A DNA stretch of 36,076 nt from Planctomycetota bacterium (GTDB taxonomy: Bacteria; Planctomycetota; J058), in assembly GCA_020425635.1 (NCBI GenBank), contig JAGQRJ010000082.1:1-36076 (forward strand). Reading direction: 5' to 3'. Position 1 is the first letter of the stretch. Every line of letters begins with the position of its first letter. Of the stretch, positions 13,447 through 32,113 are shown piece by piece. The translations under genes and the position numbers were made by a program. The notes below the pieces were generated by a model, which had not been told where the DNA came from, did no database searches, and saw only the letters and a program-made list of their open reading frames with translations.

Positions 13447-14475
13447 ATGATTCAGGTCCACAAGCTCTCCAAGGCCTTCACGGTCCACAAGAAGGACCCG
13501 GGCCTGCTCGGCTCGGTGCGCTCGCTCTTTCGCCGGGAGCAGGTGGTCAAGCAGGCGGTGCGCGAGGTCTCGCTCTCGATCGAGGAGGGCGAGATCGTGG
13601 GCCTGATCGGCGCCAACGGCGCGGGCAAGACGACCCTGATCAAAATGCTCGCTGGGATCATCGTCCCCAGCGCCGGCGAAGCGACCGTGCTCGGGCACGT
13701 GCCCTGGAAGCGCGACGACCGCTTCCGCCAGCAGATCGCGCTGATCATGGGGCAGAAGGCCCAGCTGTGGTGGGACCTGCCCGCCGCCGACTGCTTCCTC
13801 CTGCTCAAGGAGATCTACCGCCTGCCCGAGGCACAGTACCGCGAGACCCTCGACTACCTGACCGAGGTCCTCGGGGTGCGCGAGCAGCTCAACATTCAGA
13901 TCCGCCGGCTCTCGCTCGGCGAGCGCATGAAAATGGAGCTCCTGGCCGCGCTGCTCCACAGCCCGCGGGTGGTGTTCCTCGACGAGCCCACGATCGGCCT
14001 CGACCTCACCGCCCAGCGCGCGATCCGTGAGTTCATCCTCCAGTACCGCGAGCAGCACCGCCCCGCCATGCTCGTCACCAGCCACTACATGGAGGACATT
14101 CAGCGGCTCTGCGAGCGGATCCTGATCATTCGCGAGGGCGAGCTGATCTACGACGGCTCGCTGCGCCAGGTCATGGAGAAGTTCGCGACCCACAAGCGGA
14201 TCACGGTGCACCTCCGCCCCGACAAGCCCGTGCCCGAGCTCAGCGCCGAGCTGCGCGCGCTGGGTGAGGTCCTGCAGCGCGACGCCGAGCTGGTGAAGGT
14301 CGAGGTGCCCCGGGCCGACGTGCCCGCAGCCTCGGCCAAGCTGCTCCAGGAGCTCCCCGCCGCCGACCTCGTGATCGACGAGCTCGACATCGGGACCGTG
14401 ATCGAGCGGATCCTCAGCCAGCGGGCCGAGGTCCCCGCCAGCGAGCTGCCCGCGAGCGAGCCGAGCGCCTCGTGA
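13447..14475 (+). CDS. ABC-2 exporter ATPase (NatA/EcsA-like)
   Basis: 342 aa, ATG at 13447 with GGAG a few bases upstream. Walker A 'GANGAGKTT' (55-63), signature 'LSLGERMKMEL', Walker B 'VVFLDEPTIGLD' and H-loop 'VTSHYMED' are all present. The N-terminal insertion after the first strand (KKDPGLLGSVRSLFRREQ) and the C-terminal 110-residue regulatory tail are typical of ATPases paired with ABC2_membrane_6 (DUF990) permeases. It overlaps the first permease by GTGA. The three genes 13447-16072 encode a complete exporter with a heterodimeric membrane part. The substrate is unknown; relatives are linked to drug, lipid or peptide export. Confidence 0.93.
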   Translation: MIQVHKLSKAFTVHKKDPGLLGSVRSLFRREQVVKQAVREVSLSIEEGEIVGLIGANGAGKTTLIKMLAGIIVPSAGEATVLGHVPWKRDDRFRQQIALIMGQKAQLWWDLPAADCFLLLKEIYRLPEAQYRETLDYLTEVLGVREQLNIQIRRLSLGERMKMELLAALLHSPRVVFLDEPTIGLDLTAQRAIREFILQYREQHRPAMLVTSHYMEDIQRLCERILIIREGELIYDGSLRQVMEKFATHKRITVHLRPDKPVPELSAELRALGEVLQRDAELVKVEVPRADVPAASAKLLQELPAADLVIDELDIGTVIERILSQRAEVPASELPASEPSAS

Positions 14476-15284
14476 GCCCGCGCCTGTTCCTGCAGGTCCT
14501 GAGCCTCGAGGCCCGCAACCGCCTGAGCTACCGCGCCGAGTTCTGGCTCAACGCGCTCGTCGGGTTCGGGGTCGAGTTCGCGGTGGTCTACTTCCTCTGG
14601 AGCTCCATGTTCCGCGAGTCGGGCAAGCAGGAGATCGGCGGCTTCGACCTCCAGGGCATGGTGACCTACTACCTGGCGGTGATCCTGCTCGGCAAGCTCG
14701 TGCGCACCCAGCGCTTCGAGGGCGGCGTCTCGACGGACATTTACGAGGGCGGGCTGAACCGCTACCTGGTCTTTCCCGCGGGCTACTTCCCCTTCAAATA
14801 CGCCCAGCACCTGGGCGGCCTCGTCCCGGCGGTGGTGCAGTTCCTCCTCTTCGCGCTCGTCGTCGCGTTCTTCCTCGACGTCCCTCCCGAGCTGCGCCCC
14901 AGCCCGACCTCGGCGCTCATGGCGCTGGCCGCGATCGCGGTCGCCAACCTGCTCTACTACCTGCTCGACTACGCGATCCAGCTCGTCGCCTTCTGGGCCG
15001 ACAACGTGTGGAGCCTCGACGTGGCCAAGTGGTTCGTCGCCAGCTTGCTCGGCGGGTTCATGGTGCCGCTCTCGGTGTTCCCCGCCTGGCTCGTGCCCTG
15101 GCTCGAGGCGCTCCCCTTCCGCTTCTTCTTCGACTTCCCCGCCCGGGTGCTGCTCGGTCAGATCGAGCCCGCAGAGTGGGCGCGGGGGCTCGTGGTCGCG
15201 CTGGCCTGGTGCGGGGTGCTGGCCCTGGTGGGGCGCGGGGTGTGGCGGCGCGGGGTCGAGCAGTACGCGGGGGTGGGGATCTAA
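14472..15284 (+). CDS. ABC-2 permease subunit A (DUF990-like)
   Basis: 270 aa. The GTG start at 14472 is in the GTGA overlap with the ATPase stop. It has six hydrophobic segments, with an N-terminal 'LEARNRLSYRAEFWLNALVGFGVEFAVVYF' region like that of ABC2_membrane_6 family permeases and a mid-protein 'TDIYEGGLNRYLVFPAGYFPFKYAQHLG', where family members have a conserved G-x-L-x-x-x-L-x-x-P pattern. It is the first half of the membrane heterodimer; the second permease starts at its stop codon (TAATG). Confidence 0.9.
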   Translation: MSPRLFLQVLSLEARNRLSYRAEFWLNALVGFGVEFAVVYFLWSSMFRESGKQEIGGFDLQGMVTYYLAVILLGKLVRTQRFEGGVSTDIYEGGLNRYLVFPAGYFPFKYAQHLGGLVPAVVQFLLFALVVAFFLDVPPELRPSPTSALMALAAIAVANLLYYLLDYAIQLVAFWADNVWSLDVAKWFVASLLGGFMVPLSVFPAWLVPWLEALPFRFFFDFPARVLLGQIEPAEWARGLVVALAWCGVLALVGRGVWRRGVEQYAGVGI

Positions 15285-24122: not shown

Positions 24123-25448
24123 TCAGGCCTCGCCGAACTTGGTCTGGATCTCGACCCCGATCGACTCGAGGAAGGGGGTCGGGAGCACGCCGCCCACGTT
24201 CACGATCACGTCGTCGATCCCGAGGTTCTCGAGCCCCGCCGGGCCCTCGAGCACGACCTCCTGCGCGCGGATCTCGCGCACCTCCGTCTGGAGGTGCAGG
24301 GTCAGCTGCCCGAGGGTCACCATGCGCTGCAGCTGCTCCTGGTTCTTGCTCTTGGCCCGGGAGAAGTCGTCGCGGCGGTAGCTGAGGTGGGCTTCGCAGC
24401 CGGCGACCTGGGCCAGGGCCACGGCCGCCTCGATCGCGGAGTCGCCGCCGCCGACGCAGAGCACGCGCCGCCCACGGTACTGCTCCGCGTCGATCAGGCG
24501 ATACACCACGTGCGACTGCTCCTCGCCCGGGACCCCGAGGGTGCGCGGGGTCCCGCGCCGGCCGATCGCGAGCACCACCGTGCGCCCGCGGTGAAGCTCT
24601 TCGCCCTCGGGCCCTTCACAGCGCACGCGGAAGTCGCCGACCTGGCCCTCGATCCCCACCACCCGCCGGCCTTCGAGGACCGAGAGCGGCGCGGCCTCGA
24701 TGATCCGCTCGAAGTCGCTCATGAGCTCTTCTTTGCGCACGTCCCCGCGCTTGCCGACCTTGCCGACCAGCGGAAGCTCGACCTGCTCGGTGAACACGAG
24801 CTTCCGGCGCGGGTAATGCGCGACGCTGCCTCCCACCGTGTATTGGTCGAGGAGCTTGAAGCGCAGCTCCTTGACCACGCAGTTGACCGCGGCCGCCAGG
24901 CCGGCCGGCCCGGCGCCCACGATCACCACGTCCACCAGGTCGGGGTCGTCGAGCTGCGGCACCCCGGGGCGCGCCAGCGCCCTGGGCACCGACTCGATCG
25001 CCTTCAGGCCCTGGGTCATGGCGTTGCGGATCAGGCCCATGCCCCCCAGCTCGCCTGCAATGAACATGCCGTCGACGTTGCTCTCGTAGCCCTTGCGCAG
25101 CGTAGGCAGGTCGACCCCGCGCTGGGCGCTGCCGAACACGAGCTTGATCGCGTCGACGGGGCAGGCGACCTCGCAACGCCCGTGCCCCACGCAGTCCCCG
25201 ACGGAGTGAATGAAGGTCACGCCGTCCTTGGCGCGCAGCAAGGACTCGGGGCACACGTCGATGCACCCGGCCGAGCCGATACAGACCTCGAGGTCGATCA
25301 CGGGGTGCAGGCTGGGCGGGAGCCCTTGCTGATCGTTCACGTCCCCGAGCGCCGCCTGGGCGTCTTCGCGCCGCAGCGCGAGGTAGACACCTACGACCGT
25401 GATCACCACGATCGCAGCGGCGAGCCCCAGCATGGCCTGACTGAACAT
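24123..25448 (-). CDS. Membrane-anchored ferredoxin/FAD oxidoreductase (YpdA/TrxB-like)
   Basis: 441 aa. One N-terminal membrane helix (about 5-25) is followed by a ferredoxin-like domain (50-105) and a two-Rossmann flavoprotein: 'VDVVIVGAGPAGLAAAV' binds FAD and 'RRVLCVGGGDSAIEAAVALA' binds NAD(P)H. It lacks the CxxC disulfide of thioredoxin reductase and so is nearer to YpdA-type reductases. The iron-sulfur motifs are C56-x5-C62-x3-C66-P and C86-x5-C92-x3-C96-P. The second Cys of the usual CxxCxxCxxxCP is Ser59 and His89, so each cluster has three Cys ligands. It is transcribed away from the multihaem cytochrome operon with 251 bp between them, and may pass electrons between NAD(P)H and that chain. 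Confidence 0.88.
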   Translation of the reverse strand: MFSQAMLGLAAAIVVITVVGVYLALRREDAQAALGDVNDQQGLPPSLHPVIDLEVCIGSAGCIDVCPESLLRAKDGVTFIHSVGDCVGHGRCEVACPVDAIKLVFGSAQRGVDLPTLRKGYESNVDGMFIAGELGGMGLIRNAMTQGLKAIESVPRALARPGVPQLDDPDLVDVVIVGAGPAGLAAAVNCVVKELRFKLLDQYTVGGSVAHYPRRKLVFTEQVELPLVGKVGKRGDVRKEELMSDFERIIEAAPLSVLEGRRVVGIEGQVGDFRVRCEGPEGEELHRGRTVVLAIGRRGTPRTLGVPGEEQSHVVYRLIDAEQYRGRRVLCVGGGDSAIEAAVALAQVAGCEAHLSYRRDDFSRAKSKNQEQLQRMVTLGQLTLHLQTEVREIRAQEVVLEGPAGLENLGIDDVIVNVGGVLPTPFLESIGVEIQTKFGEA

Positions 25449-25699
25449 GCGCCTATCACAGCGCGAAGGGTCAGCGCGAGCAAGCGCGGACTCCGAGGGG
25501 ACTGTGCAAGTTTTTCAGCGCCAGAGTCGATCGTTCAATCCACTGAGCAGTTCTTACAACACGGAGTAGCTCTTACAACGAGCTCCCCCCTTAACTCCTT
25601 TGAATACGTGAGGGGCCTTCGTGCACCGCAGCGGGGTGCATGGGCTCCCAAAGAGTTCCTCCACAAAGGGTTGTGACCGCGCGGAGGCGCCGCTAGCGT
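25449..25699. promoter_or_regulatory. Divergent control region with direct repeats 25552-25579
   Basis: 251 bp between the oxidoreductase and cytochrome operon, AT-richer than its flanks and without a gene. TCTTACAAC occurs twice (25552-25560 and 25571-25579), 19 nt apart, about two helical turns, as expected for a regulator binding in tandem. The repeats lie 120-150 nt before the cytochrome start. No RNA element was recognised. Confidence 0.4.
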
Positions 25700-27961
25700 A
25701 TGCATGCCATGAAGCGCTCGCAGCGATTCTTGCTGACTTTGGTCCCCGTCGTGTGCCTCCCCGTCTACCTGACGGCGTTCCACGCCGAGCCCGGCCGCCT
25801 GTCCTTGGCCCACGCAAAACAACCAACCTTGCACGCTGGACTCGACCGCTGCGACCAGTGCCACACGCCCACCGGGATCGATCCAGGCTGCCTCGCGTGC
25901 CACAAGGAGATCGGCGTCCAGCTCGAGCGCGGGCGCGGCTACCACCACCACCTCGCGAGCACGCAGCCCGAGGCCGAGTGCGCGACCTGCCACTCCGAGC
26001 ACCGCGGCGAGGCGTTCGCCCCCCTCAACGCCAACAGCTGGCCCGAGGGCCGCGACGGCTTCCGCCACCCGCACCTCGAGGCCTTCGTGCTCGACGCGGG
26101 CCGCCACCGGGAGGTCATGGGGGAGTGCGAGCGCTGTCACACGCGGGCGAAGGTCGACGCCCTCCCGAGCCCCGACGTCGAGCTGATCGCGAGCGAGGAG
26201 ACCTTCCTCGGGCTCGACACCGACTGCCACCGCTGCCACGAAGACCCCCACCACGCCGGGTTCTCCGACGATTGCCTCGCGTGTCACGACCAGGCGCAGT
26301 GGAAGGAGGCTTCGAGCTTCGATCACGCCCGGGCGTTCCCCCTCGAAGGCGCCCACACCCCGCTGCGCTGCGACCAGTGCCACCTGGCGGAGGTCGAGAC
26401 CGACCCCGTGGGGCCCACCCAGGGGGCCGCCTGCTCGGCCTGCCACCAGGACCCGCACCTCGAGCGCCCAAACCAGGCCGTGTTCAGTCGCGAGGACCCG
26501 GTGTGCGCGAGCTGCCACAGCGCGACGTCGTTCACCGAGGCCGCCTCCTTGACCTACGCCAGGGCGACCCACGCGCCCAGGACCTTCCCCCTCGCCGGGC
26601 GCCACCTGGAGACCGCCTGCCGGTCCTGCCACGCCCGCCCCGAGGACCCCTCCCCCGCGGCGATCGCGCTCCCCGCCAGCCTGGAGGAGCTGCGCCAGGA
26701 AGCCTGCGCACGCTGCCACGTCGACGTGCACACGAACCCCACGTCTGGGATCGTGCAGCTCGACACGCGCGAGGGCTGCCAGAGTTGCCACGACGTGGCG
26801 GGCTGGAAGCCGACCCTCTACCAGCGCGAAGAGCACGCCAAGACGGGCTTCGCCCTCAGCGGCGTGCACGCTGGGGTCGACTGCGTGCGCTGCCACACCG
26901 GGGTCGAGGCGGTGCGGCTCGCGAGCGAGCCGATCCGCTCCTGCGAAGACTGCCACCAGGACCAGAGCCCCCACCGCGCGGCGTTCGCCGAGGGCTGCAA
27001 CGCCTGCCACGACACCGAGCGCCCCCGCTGGCGCGGCGCGACCCTCAGCGCGCCGCAGCACCGGGTGACCGGCTTCGCCCTGGTCGTCCCCCACGACCTC
27101 GAGTGCGCCAGGTGCCACGCGCCCGAGCTGCCCTTCGCCGAGCGCTACCCCGCGACCGCCCCCGAAGACTGCCGGGGCTGCCACTCCGATCCGCACCTCG
27201 GCCAGTTCGACCGGCGCTCGAAGCCCGCCGACTGTCGCACCTGCCACGACGCCACCCGCTGGCAGCCGTCGCTGTTCGGCGTCGAGCAGCACGCCGCCAC
27301 GAGCTACCCGCTCGTCGGCGGCCACGCCGCGGCGGCCTGCACCGACTGCCACCGCCGCTTCCGCCGGCAGCTCAACCCTGACGAGTCGGTGATCTACCGG
27401 CGCTTCCGCGGACAGTCCCGCGAGTGCAAGAGCTGCCACGAGAGCCCCCACGGCGGACAGTTCGCCGACGTCCTCGCGGACGCGAGCGCTGACTGCACGG
27501 CCTGCCACTCGGGGGAGGTGACCTGGGCGATCCCCGACTTCGACCACACCGCGACGCGCTTCCCCCTCGGCGCGGCGCACCTCGACGTGAGCTGCAGCCG
27601 CTGCCACACCGCCGACCCCGAGCGCCCCAAGCAGGGTCGCCGCTACCGCCCCCTCGACCCGAGCTGCGCGAACTGCCACGCCGACCCCCACGCCGGTCAG
27701 TTCCTCCTCGACGACCCCCAGCTCACCGACGCGGGGCGCTGCGAGCGCTGCCACACTCAGGACACGCTCAGCTGGAAGCCGCGGTCCTTCGACCACAGCC
27801 AGACGCGCTTCCCCCTCGACGGCGCCCACGACGAGGTCGCGTGCGCCGCGTGCCACCGCCCCTATCAACTCCGCGACGGCCGCACGGTCGTGCGTTTCCG
27901 CCCCTTGGGGACCTCCTGTAAGGACTGCCATGGATCGTTCACGAGACCTGACGAGCGCTGA
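25700..27961 (+). CDS. 26-haem c-type cytochrome, membrane-anchored or periplasmic
   Basis: 753 aa with 26 CXXCH haem-attachment motifs by my count, from CDQCH near residue 51 to CKDCH near the end, roughly one per 27 residues. An N-terminal hydrophobic segment (about 10-27, FLLTLVPVVCLPVYLTAF) acts as export signal or anchor. The motifs come in pairs in repeats of the form CxxCHxDPHxxxF...CxxCHxxxxW...H...FPLxGxHxxxxCxxCH, so extra His residues (DPH, FDH, GAH) probably serve as distal ligands. The start is ATG 25700; the ATG at 25709 is also possible. The gene overlaps the next cytochrome gene by 32 nt. In a porin-cytochrome system it would be the periplasmic electron wire. The 904-aa minus-strand frame here is a shadow. 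Confidence 0.92.
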   Translation: MHAMKRSQRFLLTLVPVVCLPVYLTAFHAEPGRLSLAHAKQPTLHAGLDRCDQCHTPTGIDPGCLACHKEIGVQLERGRGYHHHLASTQPEAECATCHSEHRGEAFAPLNANSWPEGRDGFRHPHLEAFVLDAGRHREVMGECERCHTRAKVDALPSPDVELIASEETFLGLDTDCHRCHEDPHHAGFSDDCLACHDQAQWKEASSFDHARAFPLEGAHTPLRCDQCHLAEVETDPVGPTQGAACSACHQDPHLERPNQAVFSREDPVCASCHSATSFTEAASLTYARATHAPRTFPLAGRHLETACRSCHARPEDPSPAAIALPASLEELRQEACARCHVDVHTNPTSGIVQLDTREGCQSCHDVAGWKPTLYQREEHAKTGFALSGVHAGVDCVRCHTGVEAVRLASEPIRSCEDCHQDQSPHRAAFAEGCNACHDTERPRWRGATLSAPQHRVTGFALVVPHDLECARCHAPELPFAERYPATAPEDCRGCHSDPHLGQFDRRSKPADCRTCHDATRWQPSLFGVEQHAATSYPLVGGHAAAACTDCHRRFRRQLNPDESVIYRRFRGQSRECKSCHESPHGGQFADVLADASADCTACHSGEVTWAIPDFDHTATRFPLGAAHLDVSCSRCHTADPERPKQGRRYRPLDPSCANCHADPHAGQFLLDDPQLTDAGRCERCHTQDTLSWKPRSFDHSQTRFPLDGAHDEVACAACHRPYQLRDGRTVVRFRPLGTSCKDCHGSFTRPDER

Positions 27962-29447
27962 CCCCGCGCGCTCGCGCCGGATCCTCCGCTGGGTGGCCCT
28001 GGGCGGGGTGCTCGCCTTCGCCGCGAGCTGCGCGCTGTTCAAGACCGCCGACACGCCGCGCTCGGGTTGGAACGAAGAGGCCTGGGGGCCGGTGCTGCCC
28101 CACGGGTCGTTCCCGGCCGAGTGCGAGCTCTGCCACGTGACCAACACCTGGACCGAGATCAAGCCCGACTTCGTGTTCGACCACGAAGCGGAGACCGGCG
28201 TCGCGCTCCTCGGCGCGCACGCCGACGGCACCTGCCTGCGCTGCCACAACGACCGCGGCCCGGTGCAGCAGTTCGCTCAGCTCGGCTGCCGCGGCTGCCA
28301 CGTCGACCCGCACGAGGGCGCCCTGGGCGACCGCTGCGCGAGCTGCCACACCGAGCGCAGCTGGTCCCCCGAGGGGGTGACGGTCATGCACCTCGAGGTC
28401 GGGTTCCCGCTCTACGGGGCGCACGCCTCGACCTCCTGCGACCAGTGCCACCCCAACGCGCGCAGCCAGGACTTCCGCGGCGCCCCGACCACCTGCGTCG
28501 AGTGCCACCTCGACGACCGCCAGCGCGCGACCTCGCCCGATCACACGACCCTGGTCGACTGCGAGCGCTGCCACAAGGTGTTCGAGTGGAAGGACGCCGT
28601 GTTTCCCCACGACAGCTTCCCCCTGACCGGCGGACACATGAACGTAGCCTGTGCCCAGTGCCACGTCGGGAACGTCTTCCAGGGCACCCCTCGCGACTGC
28701 GCGGCCTGCCACCAGGACGACTTCGCCGCGACCACCGACCCGAACCACGCCGCGGCGGGCTTCTCCATGCAGTGCGAGAGCTGCCACACGATCGCCGCCT
28801 GGAAGCCGTCGACCTTCGCGCACACCAGCTGGCCGCTCACCGGCGCCCACCTGGCCACGGCCTGCGACAGGTGCCACCAAAACGGGGTCTTCGTCGGCAC
28901 GCCGCGCAACTGCGTCGACTGCCACCAGCCCGACTACGCCGCGACGAGCAACCCCAACCACACCGCCCTGGGGATCCCGACCACCTGCGAACAGTGCCAC
29001 GCGACCACCGGTTGGCGGCCGGCGAGCTACGCGCACGACACCTACCCCTTGATCGGGAAGCACCTGACGACGACCTGCAACGCCTGCCACACCAACGGGG
29101 TCTACGCAGGGACGCCGCGCAACTGCGTCGACTGCCACCTGGGTAAATACAACGCGACGAGCAACCCCAACCACACGGCCGCGGGCTTCCCCACGACCTG
29201 CGAATCCTGCCACACGCCGGCCATGTGGGAGGGCGCGGTGTTCAACCACACCTTCGACATCAAGAACGGCAAGCACAACAACTTCGCCTGCTCGCAATGC
29301 CACCCGAACGCCAACGACTTCTCGGTCTTCACCTGCCTCACCTGCCACAGCAAGAAGGACATGGACGACCACCACCTGGGCAAGTTCGCGGGCTACGCCT
29401 ACGACAGCGCGACCTGCCTGACCTGCCACCCGACGGGGCACAGGTGA
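27930..29447 (+). CDS. 19-haem c-type cytochrome, putative outer-surface lipoprotein
   Basis: 505 aa with 19 CXXCH motifs. The start ATG at 27930 lies inside the previous gene; the reading frames overlap by 32 nt. The N-terminus has a basic region, a hydrophobic stretch and 'LAFAASC' (lipobox-like, with Ala at -3 rather than Leu), so lipidation is likely but not certain. The second half consists of near-identical ~71-residue repeats, each with GTPRxCxxCH, ATSNPNHTA, TTCExCH, W, and PLxGxH. The C-terminus is 'CLTCHPTGHR'. With the barrel encoded next, it may sit in or outside the outer membrane as the terminal electron-releasing or electron-accepting cytochrome. Confidence 0.9.
   Translation: MDRSRDLTSADPARSRRILRWVALGGVLAFAASCALFKTADTPRSGWNEEAWGPVLPHGSFPAECELCHVTNTWTEIKPDFVFDHEAETGVALLGAHADGTCLRCHNDRGPVQQFAQLGCRGCHVDPHEGALGDRCASCHTERSWSPEGVTVMHLEVGFPLYGAHASTSCDQCHPNARSQDFRGAPTTCVECHLDDRQRATSPDHTTLVDCERCHKVFEWKDAVFPHDSFPLTGGHMNVACAQCHVGNVFQGTPRDCAACHQDDFAATTDPNHAAAGFSMQCESCHTIAAWKPSTFAHTSWPLTGAHLATACDRCHQNGVFVGTPRNCVDCHQPDYAATSNPNHTALGIPTTCEQCHATTGWRPASYAHDTYPLIGKHLTTTCNACHTNGVYAGTPRNCVDCHLGKYNATSNPNHTAAGFPTTCESCHTPAMWEGAVFNHTFDIKNGKHNNFACSQCHPNANDFSVFTCLTCHSKKDMDDHHLGKFAGYAYDSATCLTCHPTGHR
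28683..29321 (+). repeat. Three ~213-bp tandem repeats in the 19-haem cytochrome
   Basis: The codons for G-T-P-R-(N/D)-C start at 28683, 28896 and 29109, exactly 213 nt apart; a weaker fourth copy begins at 28479. DNA is conserved as well as protein in places (GCCGCGCAACTGCGTCGACT at 28901 and again at 29114), which points to recent unit duplication. Each unit adds about three haem sites. Confidence 0.8.
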
Positions 29448-29454
29448 GCGTGCG

Positions 29455-31197
29455 TTGACGCCCACTCGCCGGGTCTCTGCGCTGCGGCGCGCGCTCGCGT
29501 GCGCCTGCCTCTTCGCCCTGCCCCTCGCCGCCCCGCGCGCGCAGGGGCAAGAGGCCGAGGCGAAGCTGCGCCCGGTCGAGACGCGGGTGAAATACGTGGT
29601 CGAGGGCACGGTCTACCTCAGCGCGGGGCGCCGAGACGGGATCCAGGTCGGAGACAGCCTGCTCGTGACCCTCGACGACGGCTTCGAGGAGCGCCTGCAG
29701 ATCACGGCCACGGCGGAGCGCGCGTCGTCGGCCAGGCTTCCAGGCCCCCTGGCGCTGCTCGTGCGGCCAGGCCAGCGCGCGACGGTGCTGACCCACGAAC
29801 CGGCTGGGACCGAGGCGCCCTCGAAAGCGACCCCCGCGGGAGCGGGCGCCGCGGCCCCGGGCCAGGGCGCCCAGGCGCAAGACCCCAGCGGGCTGTGGGA
29901 CGACGCAGAGCCCGCCTGGGAGGGCGCGACGGTCCAGGGCCCGCTGCGGCCGCTCCTCGCGCCCGTCGCGACCCCCGAGGCCGCCCTGGCCCGCGAGACG
30001 CGGGACGCCTTCCTCCTCGACGGTCGACTGACGCTCTCGGCGTATCGCGTGGACGACACCGAGGTCCGTCGCTCCTGGACCCGGCTGCGCGCCTACGCCG
30101 ACGTAGAGGTCGACCGCCTCGACGGCACGGACTGGCGCGCCGTGATCCGGCTGAGCGCGAACACCCAGCTCGAGCAGAGCGCCAGCGACACCTACCAGCT
30201 CCGCATGCACGAGCTCTACGTCGAGCACTCGCCCAGCGACCAGCGGCACCGCTTCCGCCTCGGTCGCTTCTTCTTCGAGCCGCTCCCCATGGTGGGACAG
30301 CTCGACGGGCTGCACGGCGAGATCCAGCTCGGAACTGGCCCCGTCTACGTCGGCGCGGCGGCCGGCTTCCTCCCCACCGCGCGCCGCGAGACCCCGGACT
30401 ACCGCCGCGCGGGCGGGGTCGCCTACCTCAGCGTGCGCAGCGACCCGCTCGCGCCGACCGGCGTCGACGCGAGCCTGGGCGTGTTCGGCAGCGTCGACGA
30501 CTCGCACCTCGACCGCACGGCGCTCATGGCCCGCCTCTCGGCGCGCTTCGCGGCGCGGGTCTACCTGACGCTCATGGAGACCGTCGACGTCTACGACACC
30601 ACCGACTACCGCCAGGGCATTCGCTCGACCCGCGCCTTCGCCGACCTGCGTGTGCAGATCGTGCGACAGCTCGCGGTGGGCGCGGGCTACGACCGCAACG
30701 AGCTCGCGGACACGATCGCCAGCCGCCAGTTCTACTTCGGCCTGCAGAGCCCGGGGAACACCCGCGCAGAGCGCTACTACGTCTACGCGAACCAACACCT
30801 CCAGCCGGGCTGGAGCTTCTCCCAGCGCCTGAGCCTGATCACGCGCCGCACGCGCAAGAACCAGACCTCCCTCGCGCTGACCTGCTCCAAGTCGGGGATC
30901 TTCGCCCCCGGAGACTCGATCCGCGCGGGCTACTACGGGCTGTTCGGCGGACCGACCGAGAGCCACAGCCCCTACGTCGAGTTGACCAAGGCGCTGACCG
31001 TCGAGCTCAGCCTCTGGACTCGCTACCGCCTGCAGCTGCTCAAGCCCGAGCTGGGCAGCGACCTGACCCAGCACGAGCTGTCCCTGGGGCTCAGCTGGGG
31101 GCTGGGCGACCTCTACCTGCAGCTGGAGGGGTCCTACACCACCGGCGACAGCGTTCGGCGTTACACGGGCTTCGGCTCGCTGACCTGGCGGTTTTGA
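29455..31197 (+). CDS. Outer-membrane beta-barrel of the cytochrome operon (porin-like)
   Basis: 580 aa. TTG start at 29455, 7 nt after the previous stop, with AGGTGAG 6 nt upstream. A signal peptide covers about 1-30 (ALACACLFALPLAAPRAQGQ). A small beta domain (40-115, 'YVVEGTVYLSAGRRDGIQVGDSLLV') is followed by an Ala/Pro/Gly linker to about 170. The rest alternates polar and hydrophobic residues in amphipathic strands with aromatic girdles, and ends in 'YTGFGSLTWRF'; the terminal Phe is the BAM recognition signal. This size fits a barrel of about 22-26 strands, as in MtrB/PioB-type sheaths around a multihaem cytochrome, though I see no clear sequence match to those families. Confidence 0.85.
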   Translation: MTPTRRVSALRRALACACLFALPLAAPRAQGQEAEAKLRPVETRVKYVVEGTVYLSAGRRDGIQVGDSLLVTLDDGFEERLQITATAERASSARLPGPLALLVRPGQRATVLTHEPAGTEAPSKATPAGAGAAAPGQGAQAQDPSGLWDDAEPAWEGATVQGPLRPLLAPVATPEAALARETRDAFLLDGRLTLSAYRVDDTEVRRSWTRLRAYADVEVDRLDGTDWRAVIRLSANTQLEQSASDTYQLRMHELYVEHSPSDQRHRFRLGRFFFEPLPMVGQLDGLHGEIQLGTGPVYVGAAAGFLPTARRETPDYRRAGGVAYLSVRSDPLAPTGVDASLGVFGSVDDSHLDRTALMARLSARFAARVYLTLMETVDVYDTTDYRQGIRSTRAFADLRVQIVRQLAVGAGYDRNELADTIASRQFYFGLQSPGNTRAERYYVYANQHLQPGWSFSQRLSLITRRTRKNQTSLALTCSKSGIFAPGDSIRAGYYGLFGGPTESHSPYVELTKALTVELSLWTRYRLQLLKPELGSDLTQHELSLGLSWGLGDLYLQLEGSYTTGDSVRRYTGFGSLTWRF

Positions 31198-31219
31198 ACA
31201 TGACTGGAGCCCGTCGCAC

Positions 31220-32113
31220 GTGATCCCCGGAGACCCGCAGAGCTCGCTGCTCGCGCGCGCGATCCCCCTCGCGATCGCCTGGGGCCTGGCCTGCGCCGTG
31301 GTCGGCGTCAGCCTCACCCTGCTCGTGACCGGCTGGGACTACTACCTGCTCCCGATCGCGGAGCAGGGCGCGCACCCCTCCGACCCGCTGCTGCGCAGCT
31401 CCGGCCGCTACGGCCTCGCGCTCGGGGTCACGGCCGCGAGCCTCATGGGCCTCAACGTGCTCTACCTCGTGCGCCGCAACCTCGCGGGGAACATGAAGCT
31501 CGGCTCGCTGCGCGCCTGGATGACGATCCACGTGGCCACCGGCCTCGCCGCGCCGGTGGTCGCCCTCATGCACTCCGGCTTCACCTTTCGCACGCCGCTC
31601 GGCGTGTTCGCGCTGGGCCTGCTGACCACCGCCGCGCTGGCGGGGATCGTGGGCCGCTACGTGTACTCGGTCGTGCCTCGCGGGAGCTCGGGCCGGGAGC
31701 TCGAGCTGACCCAGGTGCGGGCCACGGCCGGCGAGGCGCTGGAGCAGCTCGAGGGCGAGCTCGCCGCAGAGGCCAGGGCGGCGGGCTTGATCAAGGAGGT
31801 GCTCGCGGAGCCACTCCCGCCGCGCCCCGAAGGCTGGATCGGCGCGCGGATCATGACGCTCGTGCGCTCGGACCTGCGCCGACGCGCGCGGCTGCGCACA
31901 CTGCGCCGGGCGCTGGGGTCCGACGCCAAGTCGGCCCGCTTGCTGGACCTGCTCGAGACCGTGCTCGACCTGCGGGTGCAGGCGCGGCAGCACCAGGAGC
32001 TGCACCGGATCATGGCCAGCTGGCGCGGCGCGCACCGCTGGATGGCCCTGACCGCGACCCTGCTCCTGCTGGGGCACGTCTACGTCGCCGTCCGCTACGC
32101 GCACCTCTGGTAG
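31220..32113 (+). CDS. Diheme cytochrome b-like membrane protein
   Basis: 297 aa, GTG start at 31220 with GGAG 10 nt upstream. Four or five membrane helices: about 12-44, 62-86, 98-120, 125-150 and 270-294. His104 and His118 in one helix and His272 and His286 in the last are both spaced by 14 residues. That is the geometry that holds two b haems between two helices in cytochrome b and related quinol-oxidising subunits. A charged helical segment of about 110 residues (155-265), probably cytoplasmic or periplasmic coiled coil, separates them. It closes the cytochrome operon and could exchange electrons between the quinone pool and the 26-haem cytochrome. No sequence family recognised with certainty. 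Confidence 0.75.
   Translation: MIPGDPQSSLLARAIPLAIAWGLACAVVGVSLTLLVTGWDYYLLPIAEQGAHPSDPLLRSSGRYGLALGVTAASLMGLNVLYLVRRNLAGNMKLGSLRAWMTIHVATGLAAPVVALMHSGFTFRTPLGVFALGLLTTAALAGIVGRYVYSVVPRGSSGRELELTQVRATAGEALEQLEGELAAEARAAGLIKEVLAEPLPPRPEGWIGARIMTLVRSDLRRRARLRTLRRALGSDAKSARLLDLLETVLDLRVQARQHQELHRIMASWRGAHRWMALTATLLLLGHVYVAVRYAHLW

Follow-up and report, generated by a model that had tools for sequence, protein, structure and literature searches.

Introduction

PCC3 is a predicted porin-cytochrome conduit that He et al. (2017, PMC5566968) described in Alpha-, Beta- and Gammaproteobacteria. According to the main text of that study, it is composed of a porin, one extracellular and one periplasmic multihaem cytochrome (MHC) and an inner-membrane protein (IMP) of roughly 300 amino acids with five helices, of which the third and fifth bear the motif WX3HX13H and the fourth the motif SGXXG. 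The MHCs are described there as repeat-rich, with 22-39 amino acids per haem, and those of S. lithotrophicus ES-1 contain 21 and 18 haems (Hoover et al., 2023, PMC10734462). The published models, as outlined in the main texts, place the quinone pool at the inner end of the electron path, and the conduit is known from iron oxidisers (PMC5566968, PMC10734462). A flavin or NAD partner for PCC3 is not mentioned in the main text of He et al. (2017). Although known since 2017, PCC3 has neither a tested function, being described as untested in PMC12442390, nor a known inner-membrane electron partner. In the main texts of the open-access literature searched, no report of PCC3 in Planctomycetota was found.

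The DNA analysed here, hereafter the window, is a stretch of 36,076 nucleotides from a Planctomycetota bacterium (GCA_020425635.1, JAGQRJ010000082.1), representing an entire contig of a 7.46-Mb genome that is 89% complete. The original prediction, made from the sequence alone, had read positions 25,700 to 32,113 as a putative electron conduit, possibly of a new type, with haem numbers, a gene order and a barrel that match no family known to its author. Its four genes, A to D, were placed correctly, but a fifth gene, E, was left out (Table 1). A porin-cytochrome conduit is still the best reading of the locus; the statement that it matches no known family has to be given up, since the locus agrees with PCC3 in its set of genes, its haem density and the motifs of its IMP, as judged from anatomy and motifs.

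Table 1. Features of the predicted conduit locus in the window
Feature	Position	Strand	Basis
E, membrane-anchored flavoprotein oxidoreductase of the NAD(P)H type (predicted), 441 aa	24123..25448	-	Pfam, PDB comparison, linkage
Fe-S motifs of E, residues 56-96	25161..25283	-	sequence; conserved in homologues
E/A divergent intergenic region, likely divergent promoter	25449..25699	.	inferred from gene layout
A, 26-haem periplasmic cytochrome c, predicted wire	25700..27961	+	26 CXXCH; Cytochrome_C7 3.3e-32
B, 19-haem cytochrome c, predicted surface lipoprotein, repeated triheme units	27930..29447	+	19 CXXCH
Cys34 of B, lipobox-like (AAS-C)	28029..28031	+	sequence; LVAC/LLAC/VLSC/LAAC-type sites in homologues
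C, predicted 22-strand outer-membrane barrel with a signal peptide and a small N-terminal domain	29455..31197	+	AlphaFold2
D, predicted IMP of the PCC3 type, resembling a diheme cytochrome b	31220..32113	+	AlphaFold2 mean pLDDT 82; motifs
D, WX3HX13H, helix 3 (W100, H104, H118)	31517..31573	+	sequence motif, model
D, AGIVG, SGXXG variant, helix 4	31640..31654	+	sequence motif, model
D, WX3HX13H, helix 5 (W268, H272, H286)	32021..32077	+	sequence motif, model

Results

Multihaem cytochromes A and B

Genes A and B overlap by 32 nucleotides in different reading frames and encode proteins of 753 and 505 amino acids. The originally proposed haem numbers of 26 and 19 are exact: counting CXXCH motifs in the translations gave the same values, corresponding to 29.0 (A) and 26.6 (B) amino acids per haem, while only about 0.3 (A) and 0.24 (B) motifs would be expected from the C and H composition alone. 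We infer from these motifs that haem is bound, and the histidines beyond the CXXCH motifs (34 in A, 21 in B) would suffice for each haem to be ligated by two histidines. The N-terminal sequence of A reads as a signal or anchor, and its C-terminal part resembles the DmsE/MtrA decahaem family (2.3e-17) at a score under the family cut-off. For B, Pfam matches to Cytochrome_C7 (6e-24) and to MtrC/MtrF domain II-IV (1.5e-9) were obtained. In B and most homologues of the main clade, a hydrophobic stretch leads to a lipobox-like cysteine just upstream of the first haem motif, which would fit with a surface lipoprotein. Sequence comparison showed that such a cysteine is absent at this position in Emticicia and in most genomes of the same family. 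Searches of PDB sequences with A and B as queries yielded no match, and a pattern scan of the window's own genome for closely spaced haem pairs, with a pattern that was too strict, detected none.

Barrel protein C and inner-membrane protein D

Gene C has a TTG start and encodes 580 amino acids with the C-terminus TWRF, in agreement with the original description of a signal-peptide barrel ending in Phe. In the AlphaFold2 model (mean pLDDT 75.5, pTM 0.67), 22 barrel strands were found from residue 187 onward, most blocks having a pLDDT of 85-95, and a barrel with this predicted number of strands is not small, which bears on the original proviso that the pore must be wide enough for a cytochrome. 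Structural matches in the PDB were generic outer-membrane barrels (ushers, Occ/OprD, AlgE) with TM-scores near 0.4; MtrB was missing from the 50 best matches. A barrel profile hit almost every related locus and also Emticicia (3.8e-21). As this profile was built from twelve barrels of the related loci, the matches in those loci are partly circular, whereas the matches in the remaining loci and in Emticicia are not. NCBIfam held no model for C or D.

The protein previously noted as diheme b-like was recovered as a membrane protein of 297 amino acids with two WX3HX13H motifs and five long predicted helices in the AlphaFold2 model (6-37, 63-87, 97-118, 126-151 and 258-293). The helix-4 motif, AGIVG in the window, reads SGVVG or similar in several homologues, and both glycines are invariant in the homologue alignment A1. 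Because of the four conserved histidines and weak Pfam matches of D homologues to DUF4405, Ferric_reduct and Ni_hydr_CYTB/cytochrome b561, D may be likened to a diheme b protein or ferric reductase. A fold search with the D model against the PDB gave no significant match, and an IMP profile run against PDB sequences gave chance matches only.

Oxidoreductase E

E starts with an N-terminal membrane anchor (residues 7-25), followed by two ferredoxin-like motifs, C56-x2-S59-x2-C62-x3-C66P and C86-x2-H89-x2-C92-x3-C96P, and finally by a module for FAD and NAD(P). The second cysteine of motif 2 is replaced by histidine in most homologues; the serine at the corresponding position of motif 1 is found in the window and a few others. 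An unusual type of cluster ligation is possible in E. Pfam assigned Pyr_redox_3 (1.5e-30) and Fer4_10 (2.5e-7), and the closest solved PDB chains are of the TrxR/FNR/YpdA kind. No CXXC occurs in the flavin part of window E. Window E contains the motif YRR..F.R.K, and a SYR..F.R.K.RN-like motif, conserved in most homologues, is read as a putative NADPH site by analogy to thioredoxin reductase.

Linkage and distribution

In the window, E lies on the strand opposite to A-D, a layout which counts against a reading as one five-part system. Linkage was compared across 58 loci, comprising 53 regions at the best IMP matches, three genome-contig loci, the Emticicia plasmid and the window. An E homologue is located beside or near the IMP in 52 of these 58 loci, and in 27 of the 52 both form one open frame; in the two such frames examined with Pfam, the IMP part is preceded by Fer4 and Pyr_redox domains. 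E is missing from six loci, four of them on short contigs (L088-L091) and two being 7-haem paralogous loci (L096, L097). The complete set of five is present in 49 loci. Seven of the nine incomplete loci are on short contigs or reach a contig end, and the two others are the 7-haem paralogues. In this comparison the four originally recognised genes do travel together, contrary to the refuting outcome named with the original prediction.

The cluster is widespread across Planctomycetota, and one copy lies on a plasmid from Bacteroidota. An IMP match with an E-value <= 0.001 was present in 89 of 392 sampled genomes of the phylum, many of these matches being weak or partial. Plasmid pEMTOL02 of the cultured bacteroidete Emticicia oligotrophica contains a cluster with 23 and 40 haems alongside a CcsA-type maturation gene. 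The named matches of one scan of genome contigs belong to Planctomycetota, Planctomycetia and Phycisphaerales only. Beyond Emticicia and triads without a porin, plasmid searches with D, A, B, the Emticicia IMP and the Emticicia MHC2 yielded only IMP relatives that were weak or uninspected. A proteobacterial IMP relative from Variovorax (E-value 1.3e-17) is without a porin.

In the tree of E, the window copy groups with copies from the same family; in the tree of D it does not, a difference that likewise counts against the five-part reading. A mosaic origin, with a family-like E and with A-D from elsewhere, was suggested by these trees but is unsupported by the AU test, in which D joining the same-family copies was not rejected (p 0.31).

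A viral-collection contig (L113:5825-6358, IMG/VR 3300006750_000012, and L114) harbours a stand-alone IMP relative of 177 amino acids that has SGxxG and the two WX3HX13H motifs and lies some kb from a frame whose translation reads as DNA-methyltransferase-like; the relative is possibly a phage-borne cytochrome b, or else misassigned bacterial DNA. In the window, an ABC transporter ATPase and an ABC-2 type permease form a pair (13447-15284, +) that is unrelated to the conduit.

Haem numbers

With the two 7-haem paralogues omitted, the haem number is 17, 20, 23, 26 or 29 in 55 of 56 homologues of A, and 7, 10, 13, 16, 19, 22, 25, 28 or 40 in 48 of 54 homologues of B. In two or three of the exceptions in B, a motif is non-canonical or degenerate. 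Mapped onto the IMP tree, the haem count of A changed at least 15 times, with one change altering the count modulo 3, and that of B at least 21 times, with six such changes; a random step size would predict two thirds of the changes to be of this kind. A triheme unit is directly visible in the motif spacings of B (30-16-25). As the haem numbers move in threes, the predicted wires A and B appear to lengthen by triheme modules, which would be a simple rule for wire lengthening. In the 28-haem B of locus L078, triheme spacing of the motifs (30-16-25) gives way to diheme spacing (25-23). An 11-haem protein of roughly 800-1200 amino acids (e.g., L084:14575-17616) is found alongside clusters with no more than 7 or 10 haems in the extracellular MHC.

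Discussion

The locus most likely represents a five-part extracellular electron transfer conduit of the PCC3 type. This reading is based on the haem counts, the PCC3 anatomy, the barrel fold and the lipobox-like cysteine in B homologues, on the conserved linkage of all five parts with frequent E-D fusion, and on haem numbers that step by three (in 14 of about 15 changes for A and 15 of about 21 for B). It is also based on the window's own genome, in which two haem-copper oxidases were identified and RuBisCO was not found at 89% completeness. E would act on the cytoplasmic side as an NAD(P)H flavoprotein, anchored in the membrane and equipped with two Fe-S clusters, and exchange electrons with D; D, a putative diheme b-type inner-membrane protein, would deliver them to the 26-haem wire A. 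This c-type wire is predicted to span the periplasm and to plug the 22-strand outer-membrane barrel C, so assembled that B, as a 19-haem surface lipoprotein, could contact the electron partner outside (NAD(P)H <-> FAD/Fe-S <-> diheme b <-> 26-haem wire in barrel <-> 19-haem surface lipoprotein). As E is a reductase of a type that normally oxidises NADPH, and as no RuBisCO was found, we lean towards an outward flow that starts at NAD(P)H and reaches an acceptor outside the cell.

The fifth gene hints at a direct link of the haem chain to the NADPH pool. On plasmids of Variovorax and Methylophaga, an IMP and a small MHC are paired with a different NAD/FAD/2Fe-2S reductase that is unrelated to E, again without a porin. 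These triads may be regarded as an independent parallel and, together with E, would suggest that the partner in the cytoplasm is nicotinamide. A possible extension, somewhat less likely than not, is an NAD(P)H-linked and quinone-independent trans-envelope wire, in which an Fe-S flavoprotein and a diheme b protein, fused or as a pair, drive triheme-built wires (17-29 plus 7-40 haems, in Planctomycetota and Bacteroidota) through an outer-membrane barrel. If true, extracellular electron transfer would be tied directly to the cytoplasmic nicotinamide pool. Among the proteobacterial plasmids, three (L046, L047 and L122) carry a porin-less triad of FNR-type reductase, IMP and small MHC near copper or heavy-metal resistance genes, the reductase domains having been checked in L046 and L122.

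The same conduit could also connect D to the quinone pool and carry electrons inward during metal or mineral oxidation, leaving E as a side partner, for example in NADP+ reduction. Such an arrangement would be in line with the published PCC3 models, with the occurrence of PCC3 in iron oxidisers, with the quinone activity that FRD/cytochrome b-like IMPs can have and with the two haem-copper oxidases. It appears rather unlikely, as the linkage of E to the IMP, up to one shared frame in 27 loci, is too tight for a side partner; that no RuBisCO was found in the window's own genome also speaks against it. Still less probable is a role in reductive detoxification or as an assimilatory reductase (e.g., metal or humic reduction) instead of respiration. 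An NAD(P)H-linked entry would indeed conserve no energy at the quinone level, and the proteobacterial triads adjoin metal resistance genes, but those triads are without barrel and surface cytochrome, and no metal-resistance genes were identified among the window genes scanned. That A and B are mainly periplasmic and surface haem capacitors or a redox-balancing sink, with a barrel that exports or anchors B instead of housing A, is improbable: 45 haems could hold many electrons, as suggested for PCC3 (PMC10734462), and pilus ushers and AlgE are among the best barrel matches, but these usher matches have low TM-scores (about 0.4) that reflect general barrel shape, and the constant linkage of barrel, both MHCs and a membrane electron donor is the pattern of a porin-cytochrome system.

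Comparison with known systems

The five-part conduit favoured here has a functional parallel in MtrCAB, MtoAB and PioAB, in which an MHC sits in a porin, Mtr also having an extracellular MHC. The resemblance extends to the C-terminal part of A (DmsE/MtrA decahaem) and to B (MtrC domains II/IV), whereas the haem numbers differ (26 and 19 versus 10 and 10 in MtrCAB). A reaches 63.4 bits against the DmsE-family decahaem model of MtrAB/MtoAB/PioAB (TIGR03508, cut-off 192.2), and B, with its 19 haems, 15.8 bits against the OmcA/MtrC decahaem model (TIGR03507, cut-off 209.3). Chains of triheme c7-like modules (PF14522 matches) are shared with Geobacter c7-type nanowire cytochromes such as GSU1996, at a match to the NCBIfam model nanowire_3heme that is below the cut-off. 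These nanowire cytochromes are soluble, contain 12 or more haems and are not known to be linked to a porin.

Porin-MHC systems of Verrucomicrobia likewise combine, outside the Proteobacteria, a porin with a periplasmic and sometimes an extracellular MHC (PMC5615132). In the available text of that source, the periplasmic MHC has eight haems, as opposed to 26 in A, and neither an IMP nor a flavoprotein is described. PCC4, as presented in the main text of He et al. (2017), occurs in some Planctomycetes and has the same set of IMP motifs, a porin and further redox proteins in the cluster. It differs by three periplasmic MHCs (4, 5 and 10 haems) and no extracellular one, in contrast to the two MHCs of the window with 26 and 19 haems.

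The closest likeness is that to PCC3, with which the window shares the porin, the two MHCs, the five-helix IMP with its WX3HX13H motif on helices 3 and 5, a haem density inside the range of 22-39 amino acids per haem, a regular motif spacing in B and haem numbers of the same range (26/19; 21/18 in ES-1). As to the division into one extracellular and one periplasmic MHC, the lipobox-like cysteine of B and most of its homologues would fit a place of B outside the cell. Differences are the AGIVG (AGxxG) of the window IMP in place of the published SGXXG, the occurrence of window-type clusters in Planctomycetota and on one Bacteroidota plasmid instead of in Proteobacteria, their 3n+2 / 3n+1 haem ladder, and an Fe-S/FAD/NAD(P) oxidoreductase that is linked to the cluster and frequently shares an open frame with the IMP, a component outside the PCC3 description in the main text of He et al. 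(2017). New with respect to known PCC3 are thus the planctomycetal host and spread, the fifth member E and the three-haem steps. This suggests that a PCC3-like system reaches beyond iron-oxidising Proteobacteria into Planctomycetota, and the E-D fusions offer a candidate for its inner-membrane electron partner, by which this question becomes testable in vitro.
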